Source: Lachnospiraceae bacterium
GTDB lineage: Bacteria > Bacillota > Clostridia > Lachnospirales > Lachnospiraceae
DNA: 64,000 nucleotides
Direction: 5' to 3'
NCBI GenBank assembly: GCA_017453065.1
Contig: JAFTKW010000004.1
Span: 62,001-126,000, forward strand
Shown: one piece after another, positions 38,045-54,160 of the stretch
Layout: the number at the start of each line of letters is the position of its first letter
Numbering within the stretch: position 1 is the first letter of the stretch
Translations under genes and position numbers: made by a program
Notes under the pieces: model-generated
Databases searched by the model: none
The model's input: the letters and a program-made list of their open reading frames with translations, nothing else
What the model was told of the DNA's origin: nothing

Positions 38045-40585
38045 TTAGTGGGAGGTGCCTTGAAAGGCGCCTCCTATTTTGTTTAGTATGACACCTAATT
38101 CGTGGAACAACAGAGGCACTGCAGACCAGGCGATCAAAAGAATCCACTCTCTGGAATTTAGCACACAGGTGCCGAAGGCATTTACCAAAAATGGAATATG
38201 TGTAACGGCAACCTGTAAGCCGATGCCTACCACCAGTGCTACCAACATAAGTTTGTTGGCAAAGTGATTCATGGCAAAGATAGAACGTTTGATATCTCGC
38301 ATGCCGATGGCGTGGAATAGTTGAGAGATACCTAACGTTGTGAAGGCGTAGGTCTGCGCGTGTGTAAGCACAACAGGTAGCTTAAGCACGCCTGATAAAG
38401 CATCAAGAGTAATTGGCGTTTTTTGATGAATCAGTATCACCATGGGCAGAAAGAGAAAGGCACCAATACTCAGTAATCCAATCAAAATACCATAAAAGAC
38501 GGTGACAACGAGGCCGCCATGGGCAAAGAGAGTTTCTTCTTTGTCTCTTGGGGGTCTTTTCATATGTCTTTTTGGGTCATCCATGTCTACACCCAAGGCC
38601 AGAGCTGGAAGGGAATCTGTGATGAGATTTACCCATAGGATATGACTGGGCTTTAGTGGGGAGATAAGCCCCATCAAAATGGCGGAAAGCATGGTGATGA
38701 TTTCTCCAAAGTTGGAGGAGAGCAAAAACAAAACAGCCTTTTTGATGTTAGCGTAGATGCACCGGCCCTGTGCCATGGCTTTGGCAATTGTGGCAAAGTT
38801 GTCGTCAGTAAGCACCATATCAGCAGCGTTTTTAGCTACATCTGTTCCTGTCATGCCCATAGCAATTCCAACGTCTGCCACCTTTAGAGAAGGGGCGTCG
38901 TTTACACCATCTCCCGTCATAGCGACGATGGCACCTGAACTTTTAAGCCCTTTAACGATGCGTACCTTGTGTTCAGGGGAAACTTGACAGAAAACCTGAG
39001 TGTTTTTCAGAGATGCGACAAAGGCATCCTCAGACATTTGGTTGATTTCAGGACCGCTGAGACACTGTTTTTTGTCTTGTACTAAGCCTAAGGACTTACC
39101 GATGGCAAAAGCAGTATCTTTTTGGTCTCCTGTAATCATGATGGTACGAACGCCGGCCTCTCGGAAAGCTGCCACAGCAGGCGCTGCTTCGGGACGAAGA
39201 GGGTCCTGCATTCCCACGAGACCTAAGAAGGTGAGACCAGATTCTAAGTTGTCGCGGCTACTGGTTTGCTTCATGCCTAAGGCTAGCACGCGAAGCGCCT
39301 GTGAGGACATTTCGCTGGCGGCTTCCTGAATCTGCTTTTTATATGGAGCAGTAAGGGGCTGTAGCCTTCCGTCAAGGTAGATACTATTGCATTTAGTTAG
39401 AAGTACAGAAGGGGCGCCTTTGGTATAAGAGACAAGAGTGCTACTACCGGATTTGAGGTGCTGTGTGGTCATACATTTGCGATCTGAGTCAAAGGAAATC
39501 TCAAAGACTCTGGGACAGCGCTTTTCCAAAACATCTTTGTCTAGGTGGTATTGTAACCCCAATTGAAGAAGAGCTATCTCTGTAGGGTCGCCTACATCCA
39601 AAGAAGCATCGTTGCAAAGGACGAAGCCTTCCAAAAATAGGGGGTAGGATGAAAGAGTGGAATCGCCTGCTTCATAGAGTTTTCCACCTGTGTAGCACTT
39701 GGTGACAGTCATTTTGTTTTGTGTAAGAGTGCCTGTTTTGTCGGAACAAACCACACTGACGCAGCCTAAGGTTTCCACGCTGGGGAGCCTTCGAATAATA
39801 GTGTTTACTTTCACCATGCGAGTAACGCTGAGGGCAAGCACCATGGTTACAATAGCAGGCAAGCCTTCTGGCACAGCTGCCACAGCGAGGGAGATGGCTG
39901 TAATCAGCATTTCTGGAAGGTTGCGATGCTGAAGCATAGCCACCACGAATAAGACGGCACAGAGTAAAATGGAGATAACACTGAGGAGTTTGCCTAAATC
40001 TCCCAACCTCTTTTGGAGAGGAGTTGCGCCGGCCGGCGCCTCGTTGATCATTTGGGCAATTTTTCCAATCTGAGTATCCATGCCGATGGCATCCACTCTG
40101 CCAATGCCTCTACCATAGGTTACGTTTGTGGACATAAAAGCCTGATTGTGTGTATGTAAATCTTTTTCTGTGGGAACGGATTCGCCGGTAAGAGCACTTT
40201 CCTCTATTTTGAGGGAATGGCATTCTACTAAGGTCAGGTCTGCGGGCACCTGTCTGCCGGCATCCAGAACTACCAAATCGCCTGGAATCAGGTCTTTGGC
40301 GGGGATTTCCACAGGGACACCATGTTCTAAGATTACAGCCTTGGGGCTGGTTAATTTTTTGAGGGCTTCCAAAGCCTTTCTAGCTCTGCCTTCCTGTATG
40401 ACACCGGTGGTGGCATTGAGCACAATGACGGTCAAGATGATGGCAGAGTCAGAGAATTCGCCCAACAGCATGGAAATAGCAGCGGCCACAAATAATATAA
40501 AGATTAGAGGGTCATTCAATTGCTCCAAAAAAAGAGCCAGTGGAGTTTTGGGAGGGGCTTCCCGTAAGATATTTTGTCCGCGCAT
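38045..40585 (-). CDS. P-type calcium-transporting ATPase lacking the N-terminal domain
   Basis: 846 residues. The phosphorylated Asp282 is in CSDKTGTLT. Actuator motif LTGESVP, hinge TGDGVNDAPS and transport-site motifs AVPEGLP (helix 4) and NLITDSLPA (helix 6) indicate the SERCA/PMR1-like calcium type. Ten membrane helices can be placed. The protein begins MRGQNILREAPPKTPL, equivalent to the end of the usual cation-ATPase N domain, so the first 50 or so family residues are missing. No coding match for them lies upstream. AAAGGTG lies about nine bases before 40585. It probably exports calcium if active. Confidence 0.88.
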   Translation of the reverse strand: MRGQNILREAPPKTPLALFLEQLNDPLIFILFVAAAISMLLGEFSDSAIILTVIVLNATTGVIQEGRARKALEALKKLTSPKAVILEHGVPVEIPAKDLIPGDLVVLDAGRQVPADLTLVECHSLKIEESALTGESVPTEKDLHTHNQAFMSTNVTYGRGIGRVDAIGMDTQIGKIAQMINEAPAGATPLQKRLGDLGKLLSVISILLCAVLFVVAMLQHRNLPEMLITAISLAVAAVPEGLPAIVTMVLALSVTRMVKVNTIIRRLPSVETLGCVSVVCSDKTGTLTQNKMTVTKCYTGGKLYEAGDSTLSSYPLFLEGFVLCNDASLDVGDPTEIALLQLGLQYHLDKDVLEKRCPRVFEISFDSDRKCMTTQHLKSGSSTLVSYTKGAPSVLLTKCNSIYLDGRLQPLTAPYKKQIQEAASEMSSQALRVLALGMKQTSSRDNLESGLTFLGLVGMQDPLRPEAAPAVAAFREAGVRTIMITGDQKDTAFAIGKSLGLVQDKKQCLSGPEINQMSEDAFVASLKNTQVFCQVSPEHKVRIVKGLKSSGAIVAMTGDGVNDAPSLKVADVGIAMGMTGTDVAKNAADMVLTDDNFATIAKAMAQGRCIYANIKKAVLFLLSSNFGEIITMLSAILMGLISPLKPSHILWVNLITDSLPALALGVDMDDPKRHMKRPPRDKEETLFAHGGLVVTVFYGILIGLLSIGAFLFLPMVILIHQKTPITLDALSGVLKLPVVLTHAQTYAFTTLGISQLFHAIGMRDIKRSIFAMNHFANKLMLVALVVGIGLQVAVTHIPFLVNAFGTCVLNSREWILLIAWSAVPLLFHELGVILNKIGGAFQGTSH
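38051..38080 (+). terminator. Terminator for the M20 gene, inside the ATPase 3' end
   Basis: GGAGGTGCC / GGCGCCTCC (one G-U) with a TTGAAA loop, then TATTTTGTTT. These bases also encode the last residues of the convergent ATPase. Confidence 0.8.
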
Positions 40586-40659
40586 AAAATGATACACCTT
40601 TGATTCATTTACAAAGTAAGATATGACGAAAATGAGCAATATATGCAAAGCTTACTGCC

Positions 40660-40688
40660 TTGCAAGAATCCCCAAGTCTTAGTATACT
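40660..40688 (+). promoter_or_regulatory. Promoter of the UDP-HexNAc pyrophosphorylase gene
   Basis: TTGCAA (40660-40665), 17 bases, TATACT (40683-40688). A CCCCAAGT...ACTTAGGGG inverted repeat lies across spacer and -10. Confidence 0.65.
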
Positions 40689-40736
40689 TAGGGGCATAAA
40701 GGACGTTCATATTGTAAAGAGAGGAAGTATAAAGGT

Positions 40737-41963
40737 ATGACTTATGTTGAGGCTTTAGAGAAGTTGGAAAAATGGGGACAGACCCATGTACTACAGTATT
40801 TCGATGAACTGACACAGGACAAACAGCAGGAATTGCTCACACAGATTGAAGAGACAGATTTTAGTGTGGTAGAATCCTGCAAGCACAAAGAGGAACTGAA
40901 CAAAAAGGGTGTAATTTCTCCTTTGGCAGCTATGGAGCTTCCTGAGATTCAGGCGTGTGCAGACTCCTTTAGGGAGACTGGACTTGAGGCTATCAAAGCA
41001 GGCAAGGTTGGTGCGGTGCTATTGGCTGGTGGTATGGGAACCAGACTTGGCTCAGATGACCCAAAGGGTATGTACAATATTGGACTTACCAAAGATGTAT
41101 ACATCTTTGAGAGATTGATTGTAAATTTGATGGAAGTTGTGAAACAGGCTGAAGCCTGGGTGCCACTTTTCATCATGACTAGTGACAAGAATAAAGAAGC
41201 AACAGAGAAGTTTTTGAAGGAGCATGATTTCTTTGGCTACAACAAAGAATTCGTTTGGTTCTTTAAACAGGATATGGCACCAGCTTCTGATTACGAAGGC
41301 AAGGTGTATATGGAAGAAAAGTGGAAGATGTCCACTTCTCCAAATGGAAATGGTGGATGGTATTCCTCCATGGAAAAAGGCGGAATCAACCAGATTGTGC
41401 ATGAAAAAGGAATTGAATGGCTCAATGTATTTGCTGTGGACAATGTGCTTCAGCGAATTGCAGATCCAGTGTTTGTGGGTGCCACTATTCAGAAAAAGTG
41501 TGCAGTAGGTGCGAAGGTAGTGCGCAAGAATGCTCCGGATGAAAAAGTGGGCGTAATGTGTCTGGAAGATGGCAGACCTTCCATCGTAGAGTACTACGAG
41601 CTTACAGAAGAACTGATGAATGCCAAGGATGAAAAAGGAGAGCCAGCCTATAACTTTGGCGTAATCTTAAACTACCTCTTTAGAGAGGCAGACCTGAAGG
41701 CAATGTTGGATAAGAAGCTTCCACTCCATGTAGTTGAAAAGAAAATTCCATACATAAATCAGGATTTGGAATATGTGAAACCAGAGGAGCCAAACGGTTA
41801 TAAATTTGAAGGCTTGGTACTGGATATGATTCATCAGATGGATAGTTGTCTTCCTTTCGAAGTGGTTCGTGAAAAAGAATTTGCACCTATCAAGAACAAG
41901 ACTGGAGTAGACTCCGTGGAAAGCGCAAGAGCTCTGCTTGCTGCCAATGGAGTCCAGCTTTAA
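40737..41963 (+). CDS. UDP-N-acetylhexosamine pyrophosphorylase (UAP/UDPGP family)
   Basis: 408 residues of the eukaryote-like UDPGP fold. The nucleotide loop is LLAGGMGTRLGSDDPKGMY near 96-114, and the FAVDNVLQRIADPVFVG block near 230-246 matches UDP-GlcNAc/GalNAc pyrophosphorylases. It makes a UDP-sugar from UTP and a hexosamine- (or hexose-) 1-phosphate; glucose-1-phosphate cannot be excluded. AGAGAGGAAG precedes the ATG. galE follows after 131 bases, so the two fit a shared UDP-sugar supply for wall or capsule polymers. Confidence 0.85.
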   Translation: MTYVEALEKLEKWGQTHVLQYFDELTQDKQQELLTQIEETDFSVVESCKHKEELNKKGVISPLAAMELPEIQACADSFRETGLEAIKAGKVGAVLLAGGMGTRLGSDDPKGMYNIGLTKDVYIFERLIVNLMEVVKQAEAWVPLFIMTSDKNKEATEKFLKEHDFFGYNKEFVWFFKQDMAPASDYEGKVYMEEKWKMSTSPNGNGGWYSSMEKGGINQIVHEKGIEWLNVFAVDNVLQRIADPVFVGATIQKKCAVGAKVVRKNAPDEKVGVMCLEDGRPSIVEYYELTEELMNAKDEKGEPAYNFGVILNYLFREADLKAMLDKKLPLHVVEKKIPYINQDLEYVKPEEPNGYKFEGLVLDMIHQMDSCLPFEVVREKEFAPIKNKTGVDSVESARALLAANGVQL

Positions 41964-42094
41964 AATGCTGTATTTAACATTTTGACTGCTTTTCGTAACA
42001 TATCAGTATTGTAGAATGTGCCTAAACTGAATAAACTTAGGGCGTAAACAAAAGTGCTGGATGTTTAGACAGAAGACATAAATGGAGGTATATT

Positions 42095-43111
42095 ATGGCT
42101 ATTTTAGTAACTGGTGGTGCAGGATATATTGGAAGCCACACTGTGGTGGAACTGCAGAATGCAGGATATGATGTAGTGGTATTAGATAACTTAAGTAATT
42201 CCAGTGAGAAATCTTTGGAGCGCGTGGAAAAGATTACAGGTAAGAAGGTGACTTTTTACAAAGCAGATATCTTGGATCGCGAAGCGCTGGAAGAAATTTT
42301 TAATAAAGAGCAGATTGAATGTGTCATTCATTTTGCAGGACTGAAGGCGGTGGGTGAGTCTGTAGCGAAGCCTTGGGAGTACTATCAGAACAATGTTGCA
42401 GGTACTTTGATTTTGGTGGATGTAATGAGACAACATGGCGTGAAGAATATTATTTTCTCTTCTTCTTCCACTGTTTATGGTATGCCAGATGCTATCCCTG
42501 TGACAGAAAAGTCTCCTAAAAAGGATTGCACCAACCCATACGGTTGGACCAAGTCTATGCTTGAGCAGATTTTGTCCGATATTCAGAAAGCAGATCCAGA
42601 GTGGAATGTAATCTTGCTCAGATATTTTAACCCAATCGGTGCGCATCAGAGTGGTACTATCGGTGAAAATCCAAATGGCATCCCAAACAACCTGATGCCT
42701 TATATTACACAGGTTGCAGTGGGCAAGCGTCCTGAACTGGGTATTTTTGGAAATGATTACAATACTCCTGATGGTACTGGTGTAAGAGACTATATTCATG
42801 TAGTAGATTTGGCAGATGGCCATGTGAAAGCACTGAAAAAGGTACAGGAGAATGCTGGCCTTTGCATTTATAATCTTGGCACAGGCGTAGGATACAGTGT
42901 GCTTGATTTGGTAAAGACTTTTGAAGAGACTACAGGCGTAAAGATACCTTATTCCATCAAGGAACGTCGAGCTGGAGATATTGATGCAAACTATGCAGAT
43001 GCAACCAAAGCGAAAGAAGAACTTGGCTGGGAAGCAAAGTATGGTGTAAAAGAGATGTGTGCTGACTCTTGGAGATGGCAGAGCCAGAATCCAAACGGAT
43101 ACGAAGACTAG
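42095..43111 (+). CDS. galE: UDP-glucose 4-epimerase
   Basis: 338 residues, the full GalE length. The NAD-binding loop is [12 protein letters not shown]. The catalytic set is SSSSTVYG and YGWTK (YxxxK), with the sugar-site block YFNPIGAH. It interconverts UDP-glucose and UDP-galactose, and often the N-acetyl forms. TGGAGG precedes the ATG. It ends at a hairpin shared with the opposite-strand gene. Its neighbour, a UDP-HexNAc pyrophosphorylase, suggests amino-sugar substrates too. Confidence 0.95.
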
Positions 43112-43140
43112 TTTGTGATAGAGATATAAATTCATAAGAA

Positions 43141-43170
43141 AAGCCTCAGGTGCGTTGGCACTTGAGGCTT
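43141..43170. terminator. Bidirectional terminator between galE and the PAQR gene
   Basis: AAGCCTCAGGTGC / GCACTTGAGGCTT (one G-U) with a GTTG loop. The minus strand continues TTTTCTT; the plus-strand T-tract is weaker. Confidence 0.75.
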
Positions 43171-43214
43171 CGTTTATTCTTGGGATATGACTGGCTCCAT
43201 GAAGGAGTCCTTAG

Positions 43215-43865
43215 TTATGCCACATAGTTGTACATAAAGATAAAATGACAAATGCTTCCAGCCATAACAAAAACATGGAATAATTCGTGAGAACCAAAGA
43301 ACTTGAACCTGGAATTAAACACTGGTAGCTTCAGGGCGTAGATGACTCCACCTATGGTATAGATGATGCCACCAATCAGTAGCCAGAGAAAAGCAACTCT
43401 TGGCAGTGTATTCCAAAGGGGACCAAACACAGGGATGCACACCCAGCCCATGGCGATATAGATGATAGAAGAGAACCATTTAGGGCATGTAATCCAGCAG
43501 GCCTTGATGATGATGCCAAAAGCTGCTATACCCCAAACCAAGCCAAGTAATGGATAGCCTAGGCTGCCATCCAATACGATGAGACAAACGGGTGTATAGG
43601 AGCCAGCAATTAAAACAAAAATCATCATATGATCAATCTTGCGAAAAACCTTCAAAGCTTTTCCCGTCAAGTTTACTGTATGATAGGTAGCACTAGCACC
43701 GTACAAAAGAATCATGCTGGTCATGAAGATGGCCATGGCGATGAAGGATGTAGGACCGGAAGTGATACCAGCTTTCGTAAGAAGAGGAATGGAAGCGAAT
43801 ACTGCCAACATCATAGCGATGTAATGGGTCAGAGCACTGCCAGGTTCTCGAATAGTAATTTGCAT
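43215..43865 (-). CDS. Hemolysin III / PAQR-family membrane protein
   Basis: 216 residues with seven membrane helices. The conserved PAQR metal-site residues are present: ASATYH near 58-63, Asp in RKIDH near 76 and HELFHVFVMAG with a last His in ICHF near the C terminus. Bacterial members probably act as metal-dependent lipid hydrolases or in membrane homeostasis; the hemolysin name is historical. GGAGG lies nine bases before the ATG. A palindrome follows its promoter, so it is likely under a dedicated regulator. Confidence 0.88.
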   Translation of the reverse strand: MQITIREPGSALTHYIAMMLAVFASIPLLTKAGITSGPTSFIAMAIFMTSMILLYGASATYHTVNLTGKALKVFRKIDHMMIFVLIAGSYTPVCLIVLDGSLGYPLLGLVWGIAAFGIIIKACWITCPKWFSSIIYIAMGWVCIPVFGPLWNTLPRVAFLWLLIGGIIYTIGGVIYALKLPVFNSRFKFFGSHELFHVFVMAGSICHFIFMYNYVA

Positions 43866-43913
43866 AAGTCTGTACCTCCCTTTGCAACGAAATAAAACGT
43901 TAAATCACAACAA

Positions 43914-43930
43914 GTAGTTTTCGAAACTAC
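43914..43930 (-). promoter_or_regulatory. Operator-like palindrome for the PAQR gene
   Basis: GTAGTTT-TCG-AAACTAC, perfect arms, at about +10 to +25 of the predicted transcript. Confidence 0.6.
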
Positions 43931-43945
43931 ATCATTTATAGTTTA

Positions 43946-43974
43946 ATACTACTCCTTGCGTTTTATTCTGTCAA
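43946..43974 (-). promoter_or_regulatory. Promoter of the PAQR gene
   Basis: On the minus strand TTGACA (43969-43974), 17 bases, TAGTAT (43946-43951). Confidence 0.75.
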
Positions 43975-43987
43975 CAAGAAAAGAAGG

Positions 43988-44016
43988 GATTTCTAAGGCT
44001 TGTTTGGTTAGAAATC
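43988..44016. other. Inverted repeat
   Basis: GATTTCTAA / TTAGAAATC, perfect 9-bp arms with an 11-base loop, in the non-coding stretch between the PAQR promoter and the 44.1 kb promoter. It has no clear T-run on either strand; role unknown. Confidence 0.45.
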
Positions 44017-44101
44017 TTTGTCATTCGAAACCATAAAGCGCGTACAATTTAGTTGGAATAATTAAATTTACAAAAAATATTAAAAATATTTCAAAAATGT
44101 C

Positions 44102-44130
44102 TTTACAAATAAAAAGTTATCGTATATAAT
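44102..44130 (+). promoter_or_regulatory. Strong orphan promoter
   Basis: TTTACA (44102-44107), 17 bases, TATAAT (44125-44130), preceded by an A/T-rich tract like an UP element. No plus-strand gene follows before 46392. Confidence 0.8.
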
Positions 44131-44136
44131 GAACTT

Positions 44137-44320
44137 ACAAAGAAGGAGAAACAAAATAAAACAGAATAGAAAAATCAAAGAAAGGAAGGTACGGACCACC
44201 AAAACATTAAAGTACTACCCTAACAACTAAACTAATGAATACGGAGGTAGAAACCATTGGATAGCATATTTTAAAATGGGCGCATTGATTAGACGATCGG
44301 TGTGCTCATTTTATTTTGTC
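44137..44320 (+). ncRNA. Candidate short transcript (small RNA or micro-peptide mRNA)
   Basis: Bounded by the strong promoter at 44102-44130 and a terminator-like hairpin at 44273-44312, this would give a ~180-base RNA with no adjacent gene to serve. It has two ribosome-site-like sequences, AGAAGGAG (44141-44148) and GGAGG (44243-44247), but no ATG at the right distance. After the first, a basic 24-codon frame opens at ATA 44156 and ends TAA 44228-44230. After the second, TTG 44257 gives a five-residue frame. The match to a known RNA family is not evident. Confidence 0.5.
44273..44318 (+). terminator. Terminator of the orphan transcript
   Basis: AAAATGGGCGCA / TGTGCTCATTTT (two G-U) with a 16-base loop, then ATTTTGTC. 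Confidence 0.7.
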
Positions 44321-44356
44321 TATTTTTAATGATTTATATTGAAATTCTGTGTAAAT

Positions 44357-44390
44357 AAAAATACTCCAGAGTCTTCTGGAGTATTTTTTA
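44357..44390. terminator. Bidirectional terminator after the chemoreceptor
   Basis: Perfect 14-bp stem AAAAATACTCCAGA / TCTGGAGTATTTTT with a four-base loop. It ends the minus-strand chemoreceptor gene. Confidence 0.9.
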
Positions 44391-44405
44391 TGTTTAGATT
44401 AGTGA

Positions 44406-45893
44406 TTAAGCATCTATTTTTTCGAGGTCTTGCTGGGACAATTCCATCATGGTTTCGGATAGCGCCTGTAGGTGCTTGCTGTCCTCAATAACCTGTGTCA
44501 ATTGTTGTGTATATACATGCATTGCTTCTGCGATTGCCTGAACGGACATTTGGTTCTCTTCGGAGTAAGAACTCATTTCGTCCACCTGACCGCGAAGCCC
44601 TGCAAAAATATCATTTACTTCGCGAATACCGGTATTCTGGGCTTCAATGTTGCTGTAGAGTTCTTGGAACTGGTTGCCCATTACCTCAAAACCATCGCTT
44701 AAGTTCTCCAGAGAACCTAGACTGATATCCAATGCAGAAATACTTTCTATAAGCTGTTGGGAAGTCTCAGCGATTTGAACCTTCATAGAATTGACTACTT
44801 CTGCCACTTCATTGGCGCATGCGGTACTATCGACTGCAAGGCCTTGGACCTTGGTGGCGACCACGGAAAAACCTGCGCCTGCAGCGCCCGCTCTGGCTGC
44901 TTCGATGGAGGCGTTCAGTGCCAGCATAGTGGTGCTGGAGGAAATTTTGTTTAATTGTTCTGTCACTTCTGTAATCGCCAGCATCTGCTGCTCCAAAGTA
45001 TGGAAGACTTCATTGGCATGTTCAACAGCTGCCTTGGTACTTTCCATCTGAGCGCTCATGGCATTCACGTTGCGCTGGTTGGAGGCTAGCGTATTTTCAA
45101 AAGTTCTAATTTCATTGTTTAATGCGCCGATATGACCTTCGGTAGTTTGAATTTTAAACTGTACTTCTTCGCACGCTTCGGCAACCATGTTGGCTTCTGC
45201 AGAGATGTTTGTAGAGCCTCGTTCCAATTCTTCTGCGTGATTGGTCAACTGCTCGTTGGCCTCGTTCATGGAATCTGTAAGCTTGGCAGAGGTCTGCAGG
45301 CTTTCGCCCAGCTCGGTACCTAGTTCGCCAAGTGATTTCAATAAAGCTTCGGCATCTTCGGCTTTTGCTTCGTTTGCTATGATGAACTGGTGACCTCTAT
45401 GGATGCACAGATAAATCATAGCACCCGCCAAAGCGAAGGTAAGCATACACATAATAAACTGCCCAAGAGGATCTGCTTTGTGAGGGAATATAATAAATTG
45501 CACAACCATCAATATCATAGAAGCAACGAGCTGCCATTTGGTATAGTTGGGGCGAAGGTAAAGCCCAGTGAGTCCAAGAGCTGCCAAATACATGGCATAG
45601 TCATCGCTGTAATAGTTTCCTGAGCCCAATGAAATAAAGAAGATGAGAACAACTAGTCCAATGGAAACAATGAAACGTTTGCGATCTTTGGAAACCTTTA
45701 AGGCCTTCATAACTGCTAGAATGATGGAAAAGGCTCCGAGACAACCAGCAATAAGTAAAGCACCAGTGATTTCTCCGCCAGCCAAATCCTTAACAAGGAA
45801 AAAGGCAGAAACGATGTAACAAAGATAAATCATGATACGGTATATAGCATCTCTGGTTAAAGGCGCCTTGCGTCCAGTTTGTTTGTTGATCAT
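44406..45893 (-). CDS. Chemoreceptor with six membrane helices and no external domain
   Basis: 495 residues. Six membrane helices fill about 18-172 with only short loops. The signalling region follows directly, without a clear HAMP domain. The hairpin tip reads [22 protein letters not shown] with GFSVVATKVQGLA, intact for kinase coupling. The sensing part is probably the membrane bundle itself, as proposed for receptors of membrane energetics or small hydrophobic signals. GGAGGAAC precedes the ATG. It is monocistronic. Confidence 0.88.
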   Translation of the reverse strand: MINKQTGRKAPLTRDAIYRIMIYLCYIVSAFFLVKDLAGGEITGALLIAGCLGAFSIILAVMKALKVSKDRKRFIVSIGLVVLIFFISLGSGNYYSDDYAMYLAALGLTGLYLRPNYTKWQLVASMILMVVQFIIFPHKADPLGQFIMCMLTFALAGAMIYLCIHRGHQFIIANEAKAEDAEALLKSLGELGTELGESLQTSAKLTDSMNEANEQLTNHAEELERGSTNISAEANMVAEACEEVQFKIQTTEGHIGALNNEIRTFENTLASNQRNVNAMSAQMESTKAAVEHANEVFHTLEQQMLAITEVTEQLNKISSSTTMLALNASIEAARAGAAGAGFSVVATKVQGLAVDSTACANEVAEVVNSMKVQIAETSQQLIESISALDISLGSLENLSDGFEVMGNQFQELYSNIEAQNTGIREVNDIFAGLRGQVDEMSSYSEENQMSVQAIAEAMHVYTQQLTQVIEDSKHLQALSETMMELSQQDLEKIDA

Positions 45894-45933
45894 GTTGTGT
45901 TCCTCCTGTGTGAATTAACATACATCAACTTAT

Positions 45934-45962
45934 ATTTTAACGTATATTGCGCAACAACACAA
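45934..45962 (-). promoter_or_regulatory. Promoter of the six-helix chemoreceptor gene
   Basis: On the minus strand TTGTGT (45957-45962), 17 bases, TAAAAT (45934-45939). An 8-bp palindrome TTGCGCAA sits in the spacer. Confidence 0.6.
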
Positions 45963-45980
45963 GCATATTTGGCTGAATTA

Positions 45981-46247
45981 TTAGTCTTCTTCGATGACTT
46001 GGATTTCAAGATAGTCAAAATCAATCTGTTCTATGAAGTTGTCCTGTCGAAACTTGGCCTTCGCATGGCGTTTGAATTCGGTGACAGTAGAGTCAAGCCA
46101 GATGGGTTTGCCTAAATCAAACTGATAGCAAACTTCATCTAATGCATGGAAAACTTTGTGCGTACGCGTATCTTGCCTGGAGTCCTCGATGACGGTATCT
46201 TTTACCAGATGATTATCTTTAAATATTTTAGCCCACAAACGAAACAT
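45981..46247 (-). CDS. Small conserved protein of unknown function
   Basis: 88 residues beginning MFRLWAKIFKDN and ending in an acidic tail. It is soluble, with mixed alpha/beta character and no recognised motif. GAGG lies eight bases before the ATG. It has its own intergenic space on both sides and diverges from the RelQ-type gene. The N terminus seems familiar from other Lachnospiraceae small proteins, but I cannot assign a role. Confidence 0.7.
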   Translation of the reverse strand: MFRLWAKIFKDNHLVKDTVIEDSRQDTRTHKVFHALDEVCYQFDLGKPIWLDSTVTEFKRHAKAKFRQDNFIEQIDFDYLEIQVIEED

Positions 46248-46391
46248 GTGAAATACCTCTTATTTTGTATTTTATAGTAATAATTCATAAATTCTTTGCC
46301 ACTTTACTAGACTATATTAGTATAGCATCCAAACCTCAATTATGGTATACTATTTTTGAGGCGTGGCGCTAAAGAAAGGAGTCAGGCGACA

Positions 46392-47039
46392 GTGGAATTA
46401 AAGAACAACAGAGACAACGAAGTAGATAGCTGGACCGAGGTCAACTTAATATACAACGCAGCATTGAGACAGATTCAAACCAAGATGGAAATTCTGAATG
46501 ATGAGTTTCAACATGTACACAGATACAACCCAATTGAACATATTAAGGCACGTATCAAAACCCCTGAAAGCATAGTTAAGAAACTAAAGAGAAATGGATA
46601 TGAGTCTACCATTTCCAATATGATAGACTACGTCAATGATATAGCAGGTATTCGTATTATTTGTTCCTTTACTTCTGATATTTTTCGTATTGCAGAGATG
46701 ATTGCAGAGATGAAGGATATCAAAGTGGTATCCGTAAAGGATTACATCACATACCCAAAGCCAAGTGGATACAAGAGCTACCACATGCTAGTTACGGTAC
46801 CAGTATATTTGTCTGATCGTACCGTAGAGACCAAGGTGGAGATTCAGATACGTACAGTAGCGATGGATTTCTGGGCTAGTTTGGAGCACAAGATGCATTA
46901 CAAATTCGAAGGAGATGCGCCAGAACACATCAAGGAGGAACTCATTGAGTGTGCAAAACTGGTGGCAGATCTTGATGATAGAATGCTTACATTAAATGAA
47001 GAGATTCTCGCCATGAGTGGTGAAAAAGAAGAAGCGTAG
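46392..47039 (+). CDS. Small alarmone synthetase (RelQ/YjbM type)
   Basis: 215 residues. A single RelA/SpoT synthetase domain covers most of the protein: YNPIEHIKARIKTPESI near 44-60, DIAGIRIICSF near 83-93, YPKPSGYKSYH near 127-137 and EIQIRT near 153-158. There is no HD hydrolase, TGS or ACT domain, which defines small synthetases that make (p)ppGpp from ATP and GDP/GTP. The start is GTG 46392 with AAGGAG ten bases upstream; an in-frame TTG at 46356 has no ribosome site. Its terminator starts at the stop codon. Confidence 0.92.
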   Translation: MELKNNRDNEVDSWTEVNLIYNAALRQIQTKMEILNDEFQHVHRYNPIEHIKARIKTPESIVKKLKRNGYESTISNMIDYVNDIAGIRIICSFTSDIFRIAEMIAEMKDIKVVSVKDYITYPKPSGYKSYHMLVTVPVYLSDRTVETKVEIQIRTVAMDFWASLEHKMHYKFEGDAPEHIKEELIECAKLVADLDDRMLTLNEEILAMSGEKEEA

Positions 47040-47059
47040 CAATCGGCTACGCTTTTTTT
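47032..47059 (+). terminator. Terminator overlapping the relQ-type stop
   Basis: Perfect AAGCGTAGC / GCTACGCTT with an AATCG loop and T7. The first arm holds the last codon and stop. Confidence 0.92.
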
Positions 47060-47067
47060 ATGGAGAT

Positions 47068-47095
47068 GAGATTCGCAAAGCACATCTTATCTGTG
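47068..47095 (+). repeat. Dispersed intergenic repeat, copy C (partial)
   Basis: GAGATTCGCAAAGCACATCT then TATCTGTG. It matches 33058-33087 except for paired changes, and also folds as a short hairpin. Confidence 0.6.
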
Positions 47096-47260
47096 TTTGT
47101 GAAAATGTAATTCGAATATAAGCAAAAATACCCCCAAAAATGAGGAGTGCCCTGATGCTTTTTGCACCAGGGCTATTATGAAAAAATTCATATGTGTTTG
47201 TGCCTAAAAAAGTAACAATCACATCACTTTTTCGGATAGATAAAGTTTACCAAAGAAATA

Positions 47261-47288
47261 TGAACAAATTGTGAACAAACTATGAACA
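47261..47288 (+). promoter_or_regulatory. Three helically phased TGAACA boxes
   Basis: TGAACA at 47261, 47272 and 47283, 11 bases apart, so all face the same side of the helix. They lie about 95-120 bases upstream of the -35 box. Confidence 0.5.
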
Positions 47289-47330
47289 GTTAGTAAAAGT
47301 TACAAAGAAGTAAAAAAACTGGCTTAAAAA

Positions 47331-47347
47331 TTGTGCAAATTGCACAA
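47331..47347 (+). promoter_or_regulatory. Palindromic operator-like site
   Basis: TTGTGCAA-A-TTGCACAA, perfect 8-bp arms, ending 33 bases before the -35 box: an activator-like position. Confidence 0.6.
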
Positions 47348-47380
47348 TAGATGCCAAGGCGAAAAAGACAAGCGTTTTTG

Positions 47381-47409
47381 TTGTCAAGTAGCAGTAAAAA
47401 TGATAAAAT
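47381..47409 (+). promoter_or_regulatory. Promoter of the coiled-coil gene
   Basis: TTGTCA (47381-47386), 17 bases, TAAAAT (47404-47409). Confidence 0.7.
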
Positions 47410-47474
47410 ATGAAGCAAGAAAACCCGTTAATACAAAAGAAAGCGGTAGGGGAGTTATGTTTGGAGGAAGATGG

Positions 47475-48044
47475 ATGGACACTTTTATTGACAAATTGGC
47501 CCATAAGTTGACTGCACAGGAGATGATTAAGGCTAATTCTGCTGCGGATGCAGCAGAATTGCAACGCACCAAGACTCAATTGGCGAAGTACGAAGAACTC
47601 TTGAGAGAACTTCGTGAAGTGGGACGTTTGAATGCGGAGTCTGCAAAGCAGGTTAGAGACTTGACTGCAGAAGGCGTTGCAAAGCTTGAAGATACACAGA
47701 AAGTGAATCAGTTGATTGACGAAGCAATCGCCAAGATTCAAGACATGCAGAAATCAGAGATGGACATGGAGGCTTTGGAGGCGAAGCTGGAAGAAATGAA
47801 AGCCAGCATTCAGCCGATGCTTGACCAGCTTTCCGAGCATGTACACAAGGAAAACGTAAAGGTATATCGTAACGTTCAGGCTGTTGTGGTAGATGAAACT
47901 GCTAAGACTACAGATATCCTTGGCAAAAGTATCAAGAGTCTGTCTGGCAAATTGACAGCGGTGTTAGCGATTTCCATTGTTGCACTTCTTGCTTCTGCAG
48001 CGGGCTTGGTATTCCAGATCTTGGTGTATTTAAATATTATCTAG
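47475..48044 (+). CDS. Coiled-coil protein with C-terminal membrane anchor
   Basis: 189 residues. Residues ~15-125 are long, charged amphipathic helices of coiled-coil type, rich in Glu, Lys and Ala. A single hydrophobic helix lies at about 163-187, next to the C terminus, so it is likely tail-anchored. No enzyme motif. The ATG at 47475 has GGAGG seven bases upstream; the ATG at 47457 has its purine run too close. The flavin reductase gene follows after 16 bases. Function unknown; the shape suits a scaffold or membrane-curvature protein. Confidence 0.7.
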   Translation: MDTFIDKLAHKLTAQEMIKANSAADAAELQRTKTQLAKYEELLRELREVGRLNAESAKQVRDLTAEGVAKLEDTQKVNQLIDEAIAKIQDMQKSEMDMEALEAKLEEMKASIQPMLDQLSEHVHKENVKVYRNVQAVVVDETAKTTDILGKSIKSLSGKLTAVLAISIVALLASAAGLVFQILVYLNII

Positions 48045-48060
48045 GAAATAGAGGATAGTT

Positions 48061-48627
48061 ATGGCAAAGCAAATTTGGCGACCAGGAAATATGCTATACC
48101 CACTTCCAGTCGTAATGGTGAGTGTAGCTGACAAGGCAGGCAATGCCAACATTATCACAGTAGCATGGGCGGGCACTATTTGTAGTGATCCAGCGATGGT
48201 TTCTATCTCTGTTAGACCAGAGAGACATTCTCATCAGATGCTCATGGAGACTGGCGAGTTTGTAATCAATCTAACCACTAAGGATTTGGCGTATGCAACA
48301 GACTATTGTGGTGTTAAGAGCGGCAGAGATATAGACAAATTTAAAGAGATGAAGCTTACCGCCTTACCTGCCAGTCAGGTGAGTGCACCTTTGATTGGTG
48401 AAAGCCCAGTCAATATTGAATGTAAAGTGACAGAAGTTAGGAAACTTGGCAGTCATGACATGTTTATGGCAGAGGTAGTAGCTGTTCATGCAGACGAAAA
48501 GTACATGGACGACAAGGGCAAATTTCACTTGGAGTGGGCAGAGCCAATTGTATACTCCCATGGCACTTATTTCGCGTGTGGAAAGCAGATTGGTACTTTT
48601 GGTTACAGTGTTAAAAAGAAAAAATAA
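48061..48627 (+). CDS. Flavin reductase-like domain protein
   Basis: 188 residues of the FMN-binding split-barrel flavin reductase type. It has PLPVVMVSV near 17-25, NIITVAWAGTICSDPAMVSISVRP (positions about 32-55) and GEFVINL near 66-72. Members bind FMN and reduce it with NAD(P)H or act as electron-transfer flavoproteins, common in anaerobes. GGATAG-like site before the ATG. It ends at a strong terminator. Confidence 0.88.
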   Translation: MAKQIWRPGNMLYPLPVVMVSVADKAGNANIITVAWAGTICSDPAMVSISVRPERHSHQMLMETGEFVINLTTKDLAYATDYCGVKSGRDIDKFKEMKLTALPASQVSAPLIGESPVNIECKVTEVRKLGSHDMFMAEVVAVHADEKYMDDKGKFHLEWAEPIVYSHGTYFACGKQIGTFGYSVKKKK

Positions 48628-48632
48628 AAATG

Positions 48633-48666
48633 AAAGGGACAACTTCATGCGGAGTTGTCCCTTTTT
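48633..48666 (+). terminator. Intrinsic terminator
   Basis: Perfect AAAGGGACAACT / AGTTGTCCCTTT with an eight-base loop and T-run. Confidence 0.92.
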
Positions 48667-48676
48667 ATGCAGAAAA

Positions 48677-49564
48677 CTAGTTGGTCGCCTCTTTTTTGAG
48701 AAAGCGAATTTCTTTGGTGGATTTGACAATCATCACTATCGCCATAACTAGAATGATAACAATAATGGCACCACCTGATGAAGCAATCATGATGCGACGG
48801 AAATTTTCCTGTCCTGGTTCGCCAAAAACGGTCAACATTGCCGTTTCCAAAGTGAGCATGGATACCATGGCGGAGGCCAAGCTGATTACTTTGGCAGCAG
48901 AGAATACAGGACTTTGATATTTGCGATATTTCACCAGACTTACGATGGCTTTGGTGAGAGAAAAAAAGGTATAGGCTGCCATGGCAATGGTGGTGATTGG
49001 GTGGTGTACAAAGCCCCTGTTCTGCCAAACAATATAAAATACGATGGCGGATAGGGCTGTATGGAGCAGTACCAAGAGCATACCGCAAAAACGGTAGATT
49101 AAAAGTTCTAGCACTCGGTCCGCACCAGCCACATGGTTTCTGGTGTGCTTTAATAGGAAGAAACGCATTACCGCCAACAGGACATAGTAGGCGGATAAGG
49201 AATAATACCAAATAGTATTGTGGTAAAAGCCGAGGCCTAACTGAAGCAGGGCGTAGGCTGTGTTGATAAATAGCGTAGTATATAGAGAAACATTGATACG
49301 AAGCGTAGCATCAGAAAAATACCGCTTTAAATATTGGTTCTCTTTTTTGAAGTCCATACAAAAACGAATGATGGCAGGTGTCCTGACAGAAACAATGGTC
49401 AGGGTATATGCAGATATAAAATAGGCAAGATAACTAAAAATGTGTTCCGTGCCTACATATACAAAGGCATAAATAAGCATGCAAATAGCGATGGGGACCA
49501 AAATGATGACCAATGCTATGGGTGGAAAAAGGATTGCTTTTGCTATTTTCTTTAGTGTTTCCAT
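48677..49564 (-). CDS. Polytopic membrane protein of unknown function
   Basis: 295 residues with about seven to eight membrane helices; a basic cytoplasmic C terminus (KSTKEIRFLKKE). No recognised family motif. The start has TAGGAG upstream, lying in the 9-base gap after dinB, so the two are probably co-transcribed. Nothing visible links it to DNA damage tolerance, and the pairing may be incidental. Confidence 0.65.
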   Translation of the reverse strand: METLKKIAKAILFPPIALVIILVPIAICMLIYAFVYVGTEHIFSYLAYFISAYTLTIVSVRTPAIIRFCMDFKKENQYLKRYFSDATLRINVSLYTTLFINTAYALLQLGLGFYHNTIWYYSLSAYYVLLAVMRFFLLKHTRNHVAGADRVLELLIYRFCGMLLVLLHTALSAIVFYIVWQNRGFVHHPITTIAMAAYTFFSLTKAIVSLVKYRKYQSPVFSAAKVISLASAMVSMLTLETAMLTVFGEPGQENFRRIMIASSGGAIIVIILVMAIVMIVKSTKEIRFLKKEATN

Positions 49565-49573
49565 AAAAGTCTC

Positions 49574-50794
49574 CTAAGTTTCGTGTTTGGAAGATGTGGG
49601 TTTGCTAAGCAAACTGCCACGCATTACTGCGCCCTGCCCAAATTTGCTTCGGATACTGTCAAGGGCAGCGTCTAGTTTTTCTTGTTTTGGAGAAATGGTC
49701 TGCTCCGGTAGGTCAAAAAGGTTTAACTGGACTGGTTCTCCAGCAGGAACTAACTTTGAGGTGCGAATTCCGAGCAATCTAATGGGGCGCGTATCCCACA
49801 GTTCATCAAAAAGAGTGGTTGCTGTCTGATAAATTTGTTCGTCGGATGCAGTAGGTGTGTTAAGTACCATTTGATGGGATACAGACTGAAAATCATTGTA
49901 TTTAATTTCCGTGCATATCACATAGGCCTGTTCTTTAGAATGGCGAAGCCTTTGACCCACTGATTCGGAAAGACTGAGAAGTACTTTACAGGCCTCCTCT
50001 CTGGTAACGACATCCTGACTTAAGGTGGTGGAATTTCCAACTCCCTTTGGCCTTGCTTTTTGGGTGTGTACTTCACTGTCGTCTATGCCGTTGGCATATT
50101 CCCAAAGTGTAGTTCCATGACTCTTTAGATTGGTCTTCAATATATTGAGGTCACAAGTGGCCAAATCGCCAATAGTCAGAATGCCAAGGTTTCGCAGCGC
50201 CTGAACGCTGGATTTGCCACACATAAATAAGGAAGAAACAGGAAGCGGCCACATCTTGCTTTGGATTTCGTGTGTATACAAGGTGTGGACCAGATTTGGC
50301 TTTTTAAAGTCGGAAGCCATCTTTGCCAAGACTTTTTTGTCGGAGATGCCAACGTTTACGGTAAAGCCAAAACGCCTAAATATTTCATCCTTAATCTGAT
50401 GAGCCGCGGCCTCGGGTGATTCATAAAGATGAGCAATTCCTGTGAAATCCATATAACATTCATCAATGCTGGCCTGTTCAATATCGGGGCACAGACTTTG
50501 TAGGTAAGAGACGAACTGTTTGCTGCGCCTAGAGTACATGTTGTGGTCAGGGGATGCCATGATTAGATTCGGGTATTTGCGATAGGCGTTTACCACTGGT
50601 TCCCCTGTAACTATCTGGTAAGTTTTGGCAGGCACAGATTTGGCTAAAACTACACCATGTCTTTTTTCGGTATCGCCACCTATGATGGAAGGGACAAGAC
50701 GAAGATCGATTTCTGAGCCTTCCTCCAGTAATTGAAGCGCAGTCCAGCTTAGGAATGCAGAATTGACATCTATATGAAAAATAATACGTTCCAT
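49574..50794 (-). CDS. dinB: DNA polymerase IV (Y family)
   Basis: 406 residues. Catalytic residues are Asp9 in HIDVNSAF and Asp111-Glu112 in SIDECYMD. The palm/fingers, thumb (helix-hairpin-helix region near 200) and little-finger domains fit the family. The clamp-binding motif QLNLFD is near 372. It carries out error-prone translesion synthesis. GGAGG precedes the ATG. No LexA-type box is evident near its promoter; the promoter architecture is instead shared with the diguanylate cyclase gene. Confidence 0.92.
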   Translation of the reverse strand: MERIIFHIDVNSAFLSWTALQLLEEGSEIDLRLVPSIIGGDTEKRHGVVLAKSVPAKTYQIVTGEPVVNAYRKYPNLIMASPDHNMYSRRSKQFVSYLQSLCPDIEQASIDECYMDFTGIAHLYESPEAAAHQIKDEIFRRFGFTVNVGISDKKVLAKMASDFKKPNLVHTLYTHEIQSKMWPLPVSSLFMCGKSSVQALRNLGILTIGDLATCDLNILKTNLKSHGTTLWEYANGIDDSEVHTQKARPKGVGNSTTLSQDVVTREEACKVLLSLSESVGQRLRHSKEQAYVICTEIKYNDFQSVSHQMVLNTPTASDEQIYQTATTLFDELWDTRPIRLLGIRTSKLVPAGEPVQLNLFDLPEQTISPKQEKLDAALDSIRSKFGQGAVMRGSLLSKPTSSKHET

Positions 50795-54058: not shown

Positions 54059-54160
54059 CTCTTATTCAGAGTGGTGGAGGTACATAGGACCTGTGAAGCC
54101 ACGGCAACCCCGCATGCGGAAGGTGCCAACCTGAGCGATCAAACGAACGAACAATAAGAG
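54059..54160 (+). promoter_or_regulatory. SAM-I (S-box) riboswitch aptamer
   Basis: P1 is CTCTTATT (54059-54066) with AATAAGAG (54153-54160). Inside are the class signatures CAGAGTGGTGGAGG, GAAGCCACGGCAACC and GGTGCCAACCTGAGC. P1 3' bases AATAAG (54153-54158) can alternatively pair with CTTATT (54190-54195) in the terminator, giving the antiterminator. SAM binding should therefore stop transcription of metK. Confidence 0.97.

Follow-up and report, generated by a model that had tools for sequence, protein, structure and literature searches.

A compact unit on the plus strand

The window, the whole stretch of 64,000 nucleotides analysed here from a Lachnospiraceae bacterium, carries a compact unit on its plus strand (Table 1), placed between a HlyIII-related gene and an MCP-like gene that are both encoded on the minus strand. 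A sugar epimerase gene lies further upstream. An earlier sequence-only reading had singled out this unit as a strong promoter with an A/T-rich, UP-like tract, followed about 180 bases later by a terminator and enclosing no gene, and had proposed it as a candidate for a new small RNA or micro-peptide gene. The elements are all present. The promoter scores 11/12 with a 17-bp spacing and is the top of 28 matches in a scan of positions 40000-50000 on both strands, the UP-like tract has A-rich counterparts in six aligned relatives, and no ORF of at least 60 aa overlaps the unit. The terminator-like hairpin (44272-44313) consists of 19 pairs, and it supplies much of the structure in the predicted fold of 44137-44320, for which z = -3.72. 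A second, near-symmetric terminator-like hairpin at 44357-44388, in the interval that separates the RNA from the MCP-like gene, probably serves the minus-strand gene. Elsewhere in the window, at 54059-54160, there is a SAM riboswitch (78.4 bits).

Table 1. Positions of the promoter, transcript, ribosome-site and terminator features in the window
Feature	Position	Strand	Basis or remark
A/T-rich UP-like tract	44060..44101	+	5' of the -35; A-rich tracts in six aligned relatives too
Promoter TTTACA-17-TATAAT	44102..44130	+	consensus scan; inferred start near 44137
Inferred transcript, ~180 nt	44137..44320	+	-10-to-end length 175 in the window copy
5' module	44177..44210	+	SD-like AAAGAAAGGAAGGT, then GGACCA, CCA at the start-codon place, AAA CAT TAA
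Predicted 5' hairpin GGUAC...GUACUACC	44188..44220	+	single-sequence fold only; same words in L076
Micro-ORF Shine-Dalgarno (SD) GGAGGT	44243..44248	+	16S-tail duplex -11.6 kcal/mol; column conservation
Micro-ORF TTG GAT AGC ATA TTT TAA (MDSIF)	44257..44274	+	5- or 6-codon ORF kept in 142/143 loci
Intrinsic terminator, begins at stop codon	44272..44323	+	stem 44272-44313, then T-rich tail

Taken by themselves, the features of a single sequence would be weak evidence. The promoter scan alone says little, since its 28 matches are close to the mean of 22.7 (sd 5.3) in shuffled sequence. What raises the unit above chance is that relatives have the promoter, the 5' module, the micro-ORF and the terminator as well, often in other genomic places, and it is this comparison that supports the proposal of a small RNA gene.

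Related loci and their genomic neighbours

A DNA search of 41 genomes, comprising that of the window (G000) and those of 40 relatives, turned up loci in the same genus that share the promoter, the 5' part and the 3' part (e.g. in G017 and G003). R1, a covariance model of the 3' module that has a mild bias from being built on seven members with the ORF, matches 152 of 397 family genomes at E <= 0.01 and 51 of 61 genus genomes at E <= 0.1, the weak rows in both counts including bare terminators. One of these, G000:C20 (E 8.7e-5), had been a candidate for a second copy in the window genome, and was rejected as a terminator after a gene with the ORF absent. L006 in G002 was rejected as well, its similarity being promoter-like only. 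R2, a second model of 91 sequences, matches 50 of the 61 genus genomes at E <= 1e-4, among them G007 with the terminator only, and conservation therefore reaches beyond the nearest strain. The 11 genus genomes without an R2 match include five of high quality (G001, G002, G022, G062 and G459).

R2 matches six of 341 class genomes at E <= 1e-5; four belong to the family of the window, its own genome included, and the other two are partial, covering the terminator half of the model. In a sample of the order, 74 of 392 genomes match at E <= 1e-4, and 11 matches fall in other families, eight of which were inspected (G518, G563 and G627 being left out). L212 (G595), which belongs to a different family of the order, looks like a real relative, with three complete ATG minigenes of 4, 7 and 4 codons on one transcript. 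At L215, also from another family (G497), a 5-codon frame (MDGIV) abuts a terminator, with a weaker SD and a best promoter of only 8.5. The layout was absent by eye from G582, G732, G520, G530 and G496, and the match in G031 marks the beginning of a genuine gene. A repeat search at E <= 0.5 covered seven family genomes that had given no match before. The layout appeared in 3/3 genomes of genus g337, though with weak E values (7.6e-4 to 3.6e-3), and was absent from the best rows for G682, G062 and G610 (G064 being left out). The presence counts thus overlook some diverged members and take in some bare terminators.

Among 32 named records with the exact 3' motif, 17 are named as Lachnospiraceae, seven as Acetatifactor, Roseburia, Lachnoclostridium or Hominifimenecus, and eight only as Clostridia or bacterium. 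Against Rfam 15 (4227 families) the window RNA has no match at the gathering score, its near-matches all lying below threshold. The same holds for the RNA at six related loci, where the only hit is a tRNA elsewhere in L222, and a permissive search with five loci gave nothing at E <= 1. Among the titles listed in searches of open-licence PMC papers, none names such an RNA. An origin from plasmids or phages was dismissed after L004, the sole query, matched neither collection. Judged by these comparisons, the window unit is apparently one member of an undescribed small-RNA family of gut Lachnospiraceae.

For closer comparison 143 loci were assembled, consisting of all 53 R1 rows in the genus (E <= 1.9e-8, window included), 88 of 101 other R1 rows in the family (E <= 4.4e-7) and two weaker rows; the 13 family rows skipped include several near contig starts. 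A promoter scoring at least 10.5/12 lies within 620 nt upstream in 124 of 141 members, a count that omits L041 for its short upstream sequence, and 61 of these promoters score 12/12. In downstream control windows the same score is reached in 9 of 137, never 12/12. From the -10 to the end, the 124 members with a scored promoter measure 156-636, eight of them under 230. In the consensus terminator stem, pair-keeping changes on both sides are seen at each of the 16 pairs (91 sequences).

The neighbourhood is not constant. The largest neighbour cluster is a GH3 glycoside hydrolase, found downstream on the same strand at 61 of the 138 loci with at least 700 nt of downstream sequence (28 of 59 in a smaller count), and no neighbour is common to all loci. 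An aspartate kinase gene lies upstream at 41 of the 138 loci with at least 1000 nt on that side. Both were identified from the Pfam families of one example each, and the interval between them looks like the ancestral site. These frequencies would suit a cis-acting attenuator of a downstream gene, ancestrally that for GH3. However, neither neighbour was detected at 75 of 142 loci (some with short flanks), and there is no consistent downstream main ORF of the kind expected for a uORF or leader attenuator. In the window the genes on both sides are on the minus strand and a second terminator follows; without GH3 in its flanks, the RNA here cannot depend on GH3 in cis. Furthermore, a promoter-like GTAGAAA...GTAT, seen by eye between the terminator and GH3 at five loci (L002, L004, L125, L132 and L136), suggests that GH3 has a promoter of its own. 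An attenuator is an unlikely explanation of the family. Two genomes, G020 (L119/L066) and G014 (L120/L059), have two RNA copies about 0.8-1.3 kb apart in opposite directions, while in G404 and G152 two close copies lie on one strand.

The micro-ORF at the terminator

The second of the ribosome sites noted previously was said to lead to a TTG and a frame of five codons. That frame is not only present but appears to be a selected, presumably translated micro-ORF. At 142 of the 143 loci an SD-like site is followed by a micro-ORF that stops directly against the terminator, the sole exception (L187) having no micro-ORF. There are five sense codons at 125 loci and six at 17, and the set comprises 115 distinct ORF sequences from 127 genomes. 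Starts are TTG (83), ATG (57) or GTG (2), and stops TAG (54), TGA (54) or TAA (34). The spacer from the SD-like site to the start is CC plus one base in nearly all loci, with C at -3 in 124/124 and at -2 in 123/124 of the five-codon loci. Twelve further Lachnospiraceae loci, found with R2 and judged by eye, have a 5- or 6-codon ORF in nine cases. Three loci of genus g169 (L222-L224) are unlike the rest of the family, in that the last frame enters the terminator hairpin and runs for 10 codons before a TAG; L222 has three more SD modules upstream.

If the stop position were a mere T-R-R motif of the RNA, 20.5 cases of TGG would be expected there, against none observed (hypergeometric P 4e-16); after thinning to 36 dissimilar sequences the figures are 4.2 and none (P 0.0014). 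Codon 7 is a stop in 17/17 loci where codon 6 is not, and the +1 and +2 frames have no stop at the equivalent codon (0/142 each). Among 141 other terminator-like hairpins in the flanks, just one is abutted by an ORF with an SD. This comparison speaks strongly for selection on the termination of translation at the micro-ORF stop. The arrangement that comparison picks out as kept is a promoter, an SD-like site, a start, four or five further codons, and a stop directly against the hairpin. That there is an RNA family with a selected micro-ORF is, on this sequence comparison, very likely.

The pentapeptide, fM-D/E-x-x-V/F, could itself be the product, as a signal or a ribosome-acting micro-peptide, with the RNA merely its abundant mRNA. 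Codon 2 is GAN in 120 of 125 five-codon ORFs, and 99 of 124 have V or F as residue 5, Val occurring in 87 and being written with all four of its codons, which speaks for selection on amino acids. On the other hand, there is wide variation at positions 3 and 4, the last base of codon 4 is a purine in 122/125 with Ile always written ATA (60/60), which looks like constraint at the nucleotide level, and the loci lack a common neighbour, the GH3 cluster being the largest. The codon content thus indicates a constraint that is partly amino-acid-like and partly nucleotide-like, and the peptide is rather unlikely to be the point of the gene. Far less probable is a minigene of the lambda bar type, which would cause peptidyl-tRNA drop-off and so deplete a tRNA. 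The strong SD and the ATA at codon 4 of 60/125 ORFs would fit, but minigenes of the bar type have two codons, fewer than the 5-6 found here, and the last sense codon of the family varies. Dual-function RNAs such as SR1, RNAIII and SgrS are likewise standalone small RNAs with a short ORF; their ORFs are several-fold longer than those described here and are not fused to the terminator.

Proposed ribosome docking, the 5' modules and the middle domain

Of the two ribosome sites in the sequence-only reading, both exist, but the count fell short, as a third site, AAAGAAAGGAAGGT at 44177-44190, is also present. This site, and not AAGGAG at 44143-44148, is the conserved ribosome-site-like sequence of the 5' part. 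The 24-codon basic frame starting at ATA, to which the first site was said to lead, is indeed open in the window but is not a conserved gene: among 42 transcripts with the exact module GGTACGG[AT]CCACC, a frame of at least 24 codons crosses the module in only 11, and an in-frame ATG, GTG or TTG lies upstream in four. A 24-codon basic peptide was rejected on these grounds.

Words of the type AAGAAAGGAGGTACGG[AT]CCACC lie near the 5' end of the RNA. By a loose pattern, some of whose matches are spurious, 5' modules occur in 90 of 124 transcripts (one in 62, two or three in 28) and are absent from 34. Where an A immediately precedes the start-codon place (102 matches), that place is occupied by CCN in 72 and by ATG in eight; another 22 matches lack the A. 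Of the CCN modules, 49/72 have TAA after CCN and two codons. Tandem pairs of modules precede the minigene at L161, L171 and L182, and a real ATG followed by one or two codons and a stop is found within modules at L125, L132, L136, L042, L050, L054, L077 and L170. The short same-genus forms have GGAGG...ATG TAC TAA in place of the usual module. Complementarity to the anti-SD of at least 8 nt upstream of the micro-ORF start is found in 69 of 124 RNAs against 17.9 expected from shuffles; the 16S tail word used for this is present in 4/31 genomes, occurring four times in the complete genome of G006 (same genus) and being absent from the incomplete G000. For SD-like sites of 6 nt taken together, the enrichment is no more than modest (3.1 vs 1.9 per RNA). 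The SD of the micro-ORF in the window is strong but ordinary, the range for ten nearby genes being -4.0 to -13.3.

The ribosome may not be what recognises the 5' module. As the modules are GGA-rich and repeated, and csrA is present in 50 of the 61 genus genomes, the RNA might be a CsrA sponge. Yet five of 29 high-quality genus genomes are without a csrA match (G011, G018, G023, G451 and G457) and all five carry the RNA, by which a sponge as sole role was rejected. Conversely, all five high-quality genus genomes without an RNA match have csrA, so that csrA does not require the RNA either, and the two show no dependence in their co-occurrence among the 29. A sponge would also leave the constraint on start and stop codons unexplained, and it is a very improbable account.

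A mini-gene that ends right at a terminator suggests that the RNA works by holding a ribosome. The reading preferred here, with a probability of roughly 0.5, is of a standalone, strongly transcribed RNA whose 3' minigene, fused to the terminator, docks a ribosome and acts on or reports ribosome availability. A ribosome would initiate at the micro-ORF, make the penta- or hexapeptide repeatedly and stay on the RNA. Its binding would favour termination and its presence would protect the RNA, as is reported for mccA, and efficient termination would then yield a stable, abundant RNA. On the 3' side of the start codon a start complex takes up some 15-18 nt, much the same as the micro-ORF measures, so that the hairpin could just remain folded beside an initiating ribosome. 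The 5' modules, being strong SDs mostly without a start codon, could offer further docking sites, an idea that fits the excess of 8-nt anti-SD matches. The RNA would be either a ribosome-bound regulator or a titrator of free 30S subunits or ribosomes.

A close known parallel to this layout, on the description in PMC6495379, is mccA of the microcin C operons, where a promoter, a very short ORF and an intrinsic terminator follow one another, ribosome binding induces termination, and the ORF is short enough for reiterative translation, which is possible without ribosome release for ORFs of 2-8 codons. The family shares the short ORF followed by a terminator, though with 5-6 codons where mccA has seven. 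mccA belongs to an antibiotic operon with the adenylating enzyme gene mccB downstream, whereas the RNA described here has GH3 or no constant partner on that side, and an opposite-strand MCP-like gene in the window. The SD modules, and in many members the structured middle domain, are additional to what is described for mccA. Tiny ORFs with a ribosome site are also found in the axe-txe (two codons) and LEE4 leader (six codons) minigenes, as these are presented in PMC8708949, which cites protection of an mRNA by ribosome occupancy at a six-codon minigene with a strong site; those minigenes act in cis on a following gene, while here the RNA ends at the minigene. Finally, conserved start and stop codons, as seen in the family, mark the sORF/uORF candidates of comparative RNA surveys, which are likewise not consistently upstream of a main gene (PMC11109978, PMC8632094). 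The main text of each of these two surveys has 0 occurrences of Lachnospir, Roseburia or Butyrivibrio.

That the RNA could titrate ribosomes had been one of the initial ideas, and ribosome binding is now a leading idea, with titration its boldest reading. In this form the RNA would park 30S subunits or ribosomes and so set the free-ribosome pool, as an RNA counterpart of hibernation factors, using a near-consensus promoter, one or more SD modules, most without a start codon, and a self-terminating minigene. This extension is tentative, and a good deal less probable than docking as such. Not much is known about RNA biology in the Lachnospiraceae, a dominant group of gut bacteria, and this RNA family may represent a new kind of translation regulator. 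With its fixed ORF of 5-6 codons, close to the smallest size that a gene can have, it would, if the reading is true, show translation of such an ORF to be under strong selection outside antibiotic operons, and it makes testable the view that ribosome-controlled termination is a general route to abundant, stable RNAs.

Many members have, in addition, a middle domain of two helices with covariation, which would be an extra payload of a ribosome-docking RNA. Both helices are found in 44 of 101 transcripts of length 240-480, whereas five shuffles gave 1-3 of 101 apiece; the covariation set, 38 sequences chosen for pairing, is 100% paired by construction. The domain is absent from the window copy. 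In same-genus relatives some 180-200 more bases precede the 3' part than in the window, which marks the window copy as a short version, with a 5' module and the minigene. The missing domain, the lack of an aspartate kinase or GH3 neighbour, and a -35 of TTTACA instead of TTGACA might also be taken as signs that the window copy is a decaying, functionless relic of the family. This is quite improbable, as the window copy has kept an intact promoter, 5' module, SD, micro-ORF and terminator, and similarly short forms are found in three species of the same genus (G021, G452 and G462).
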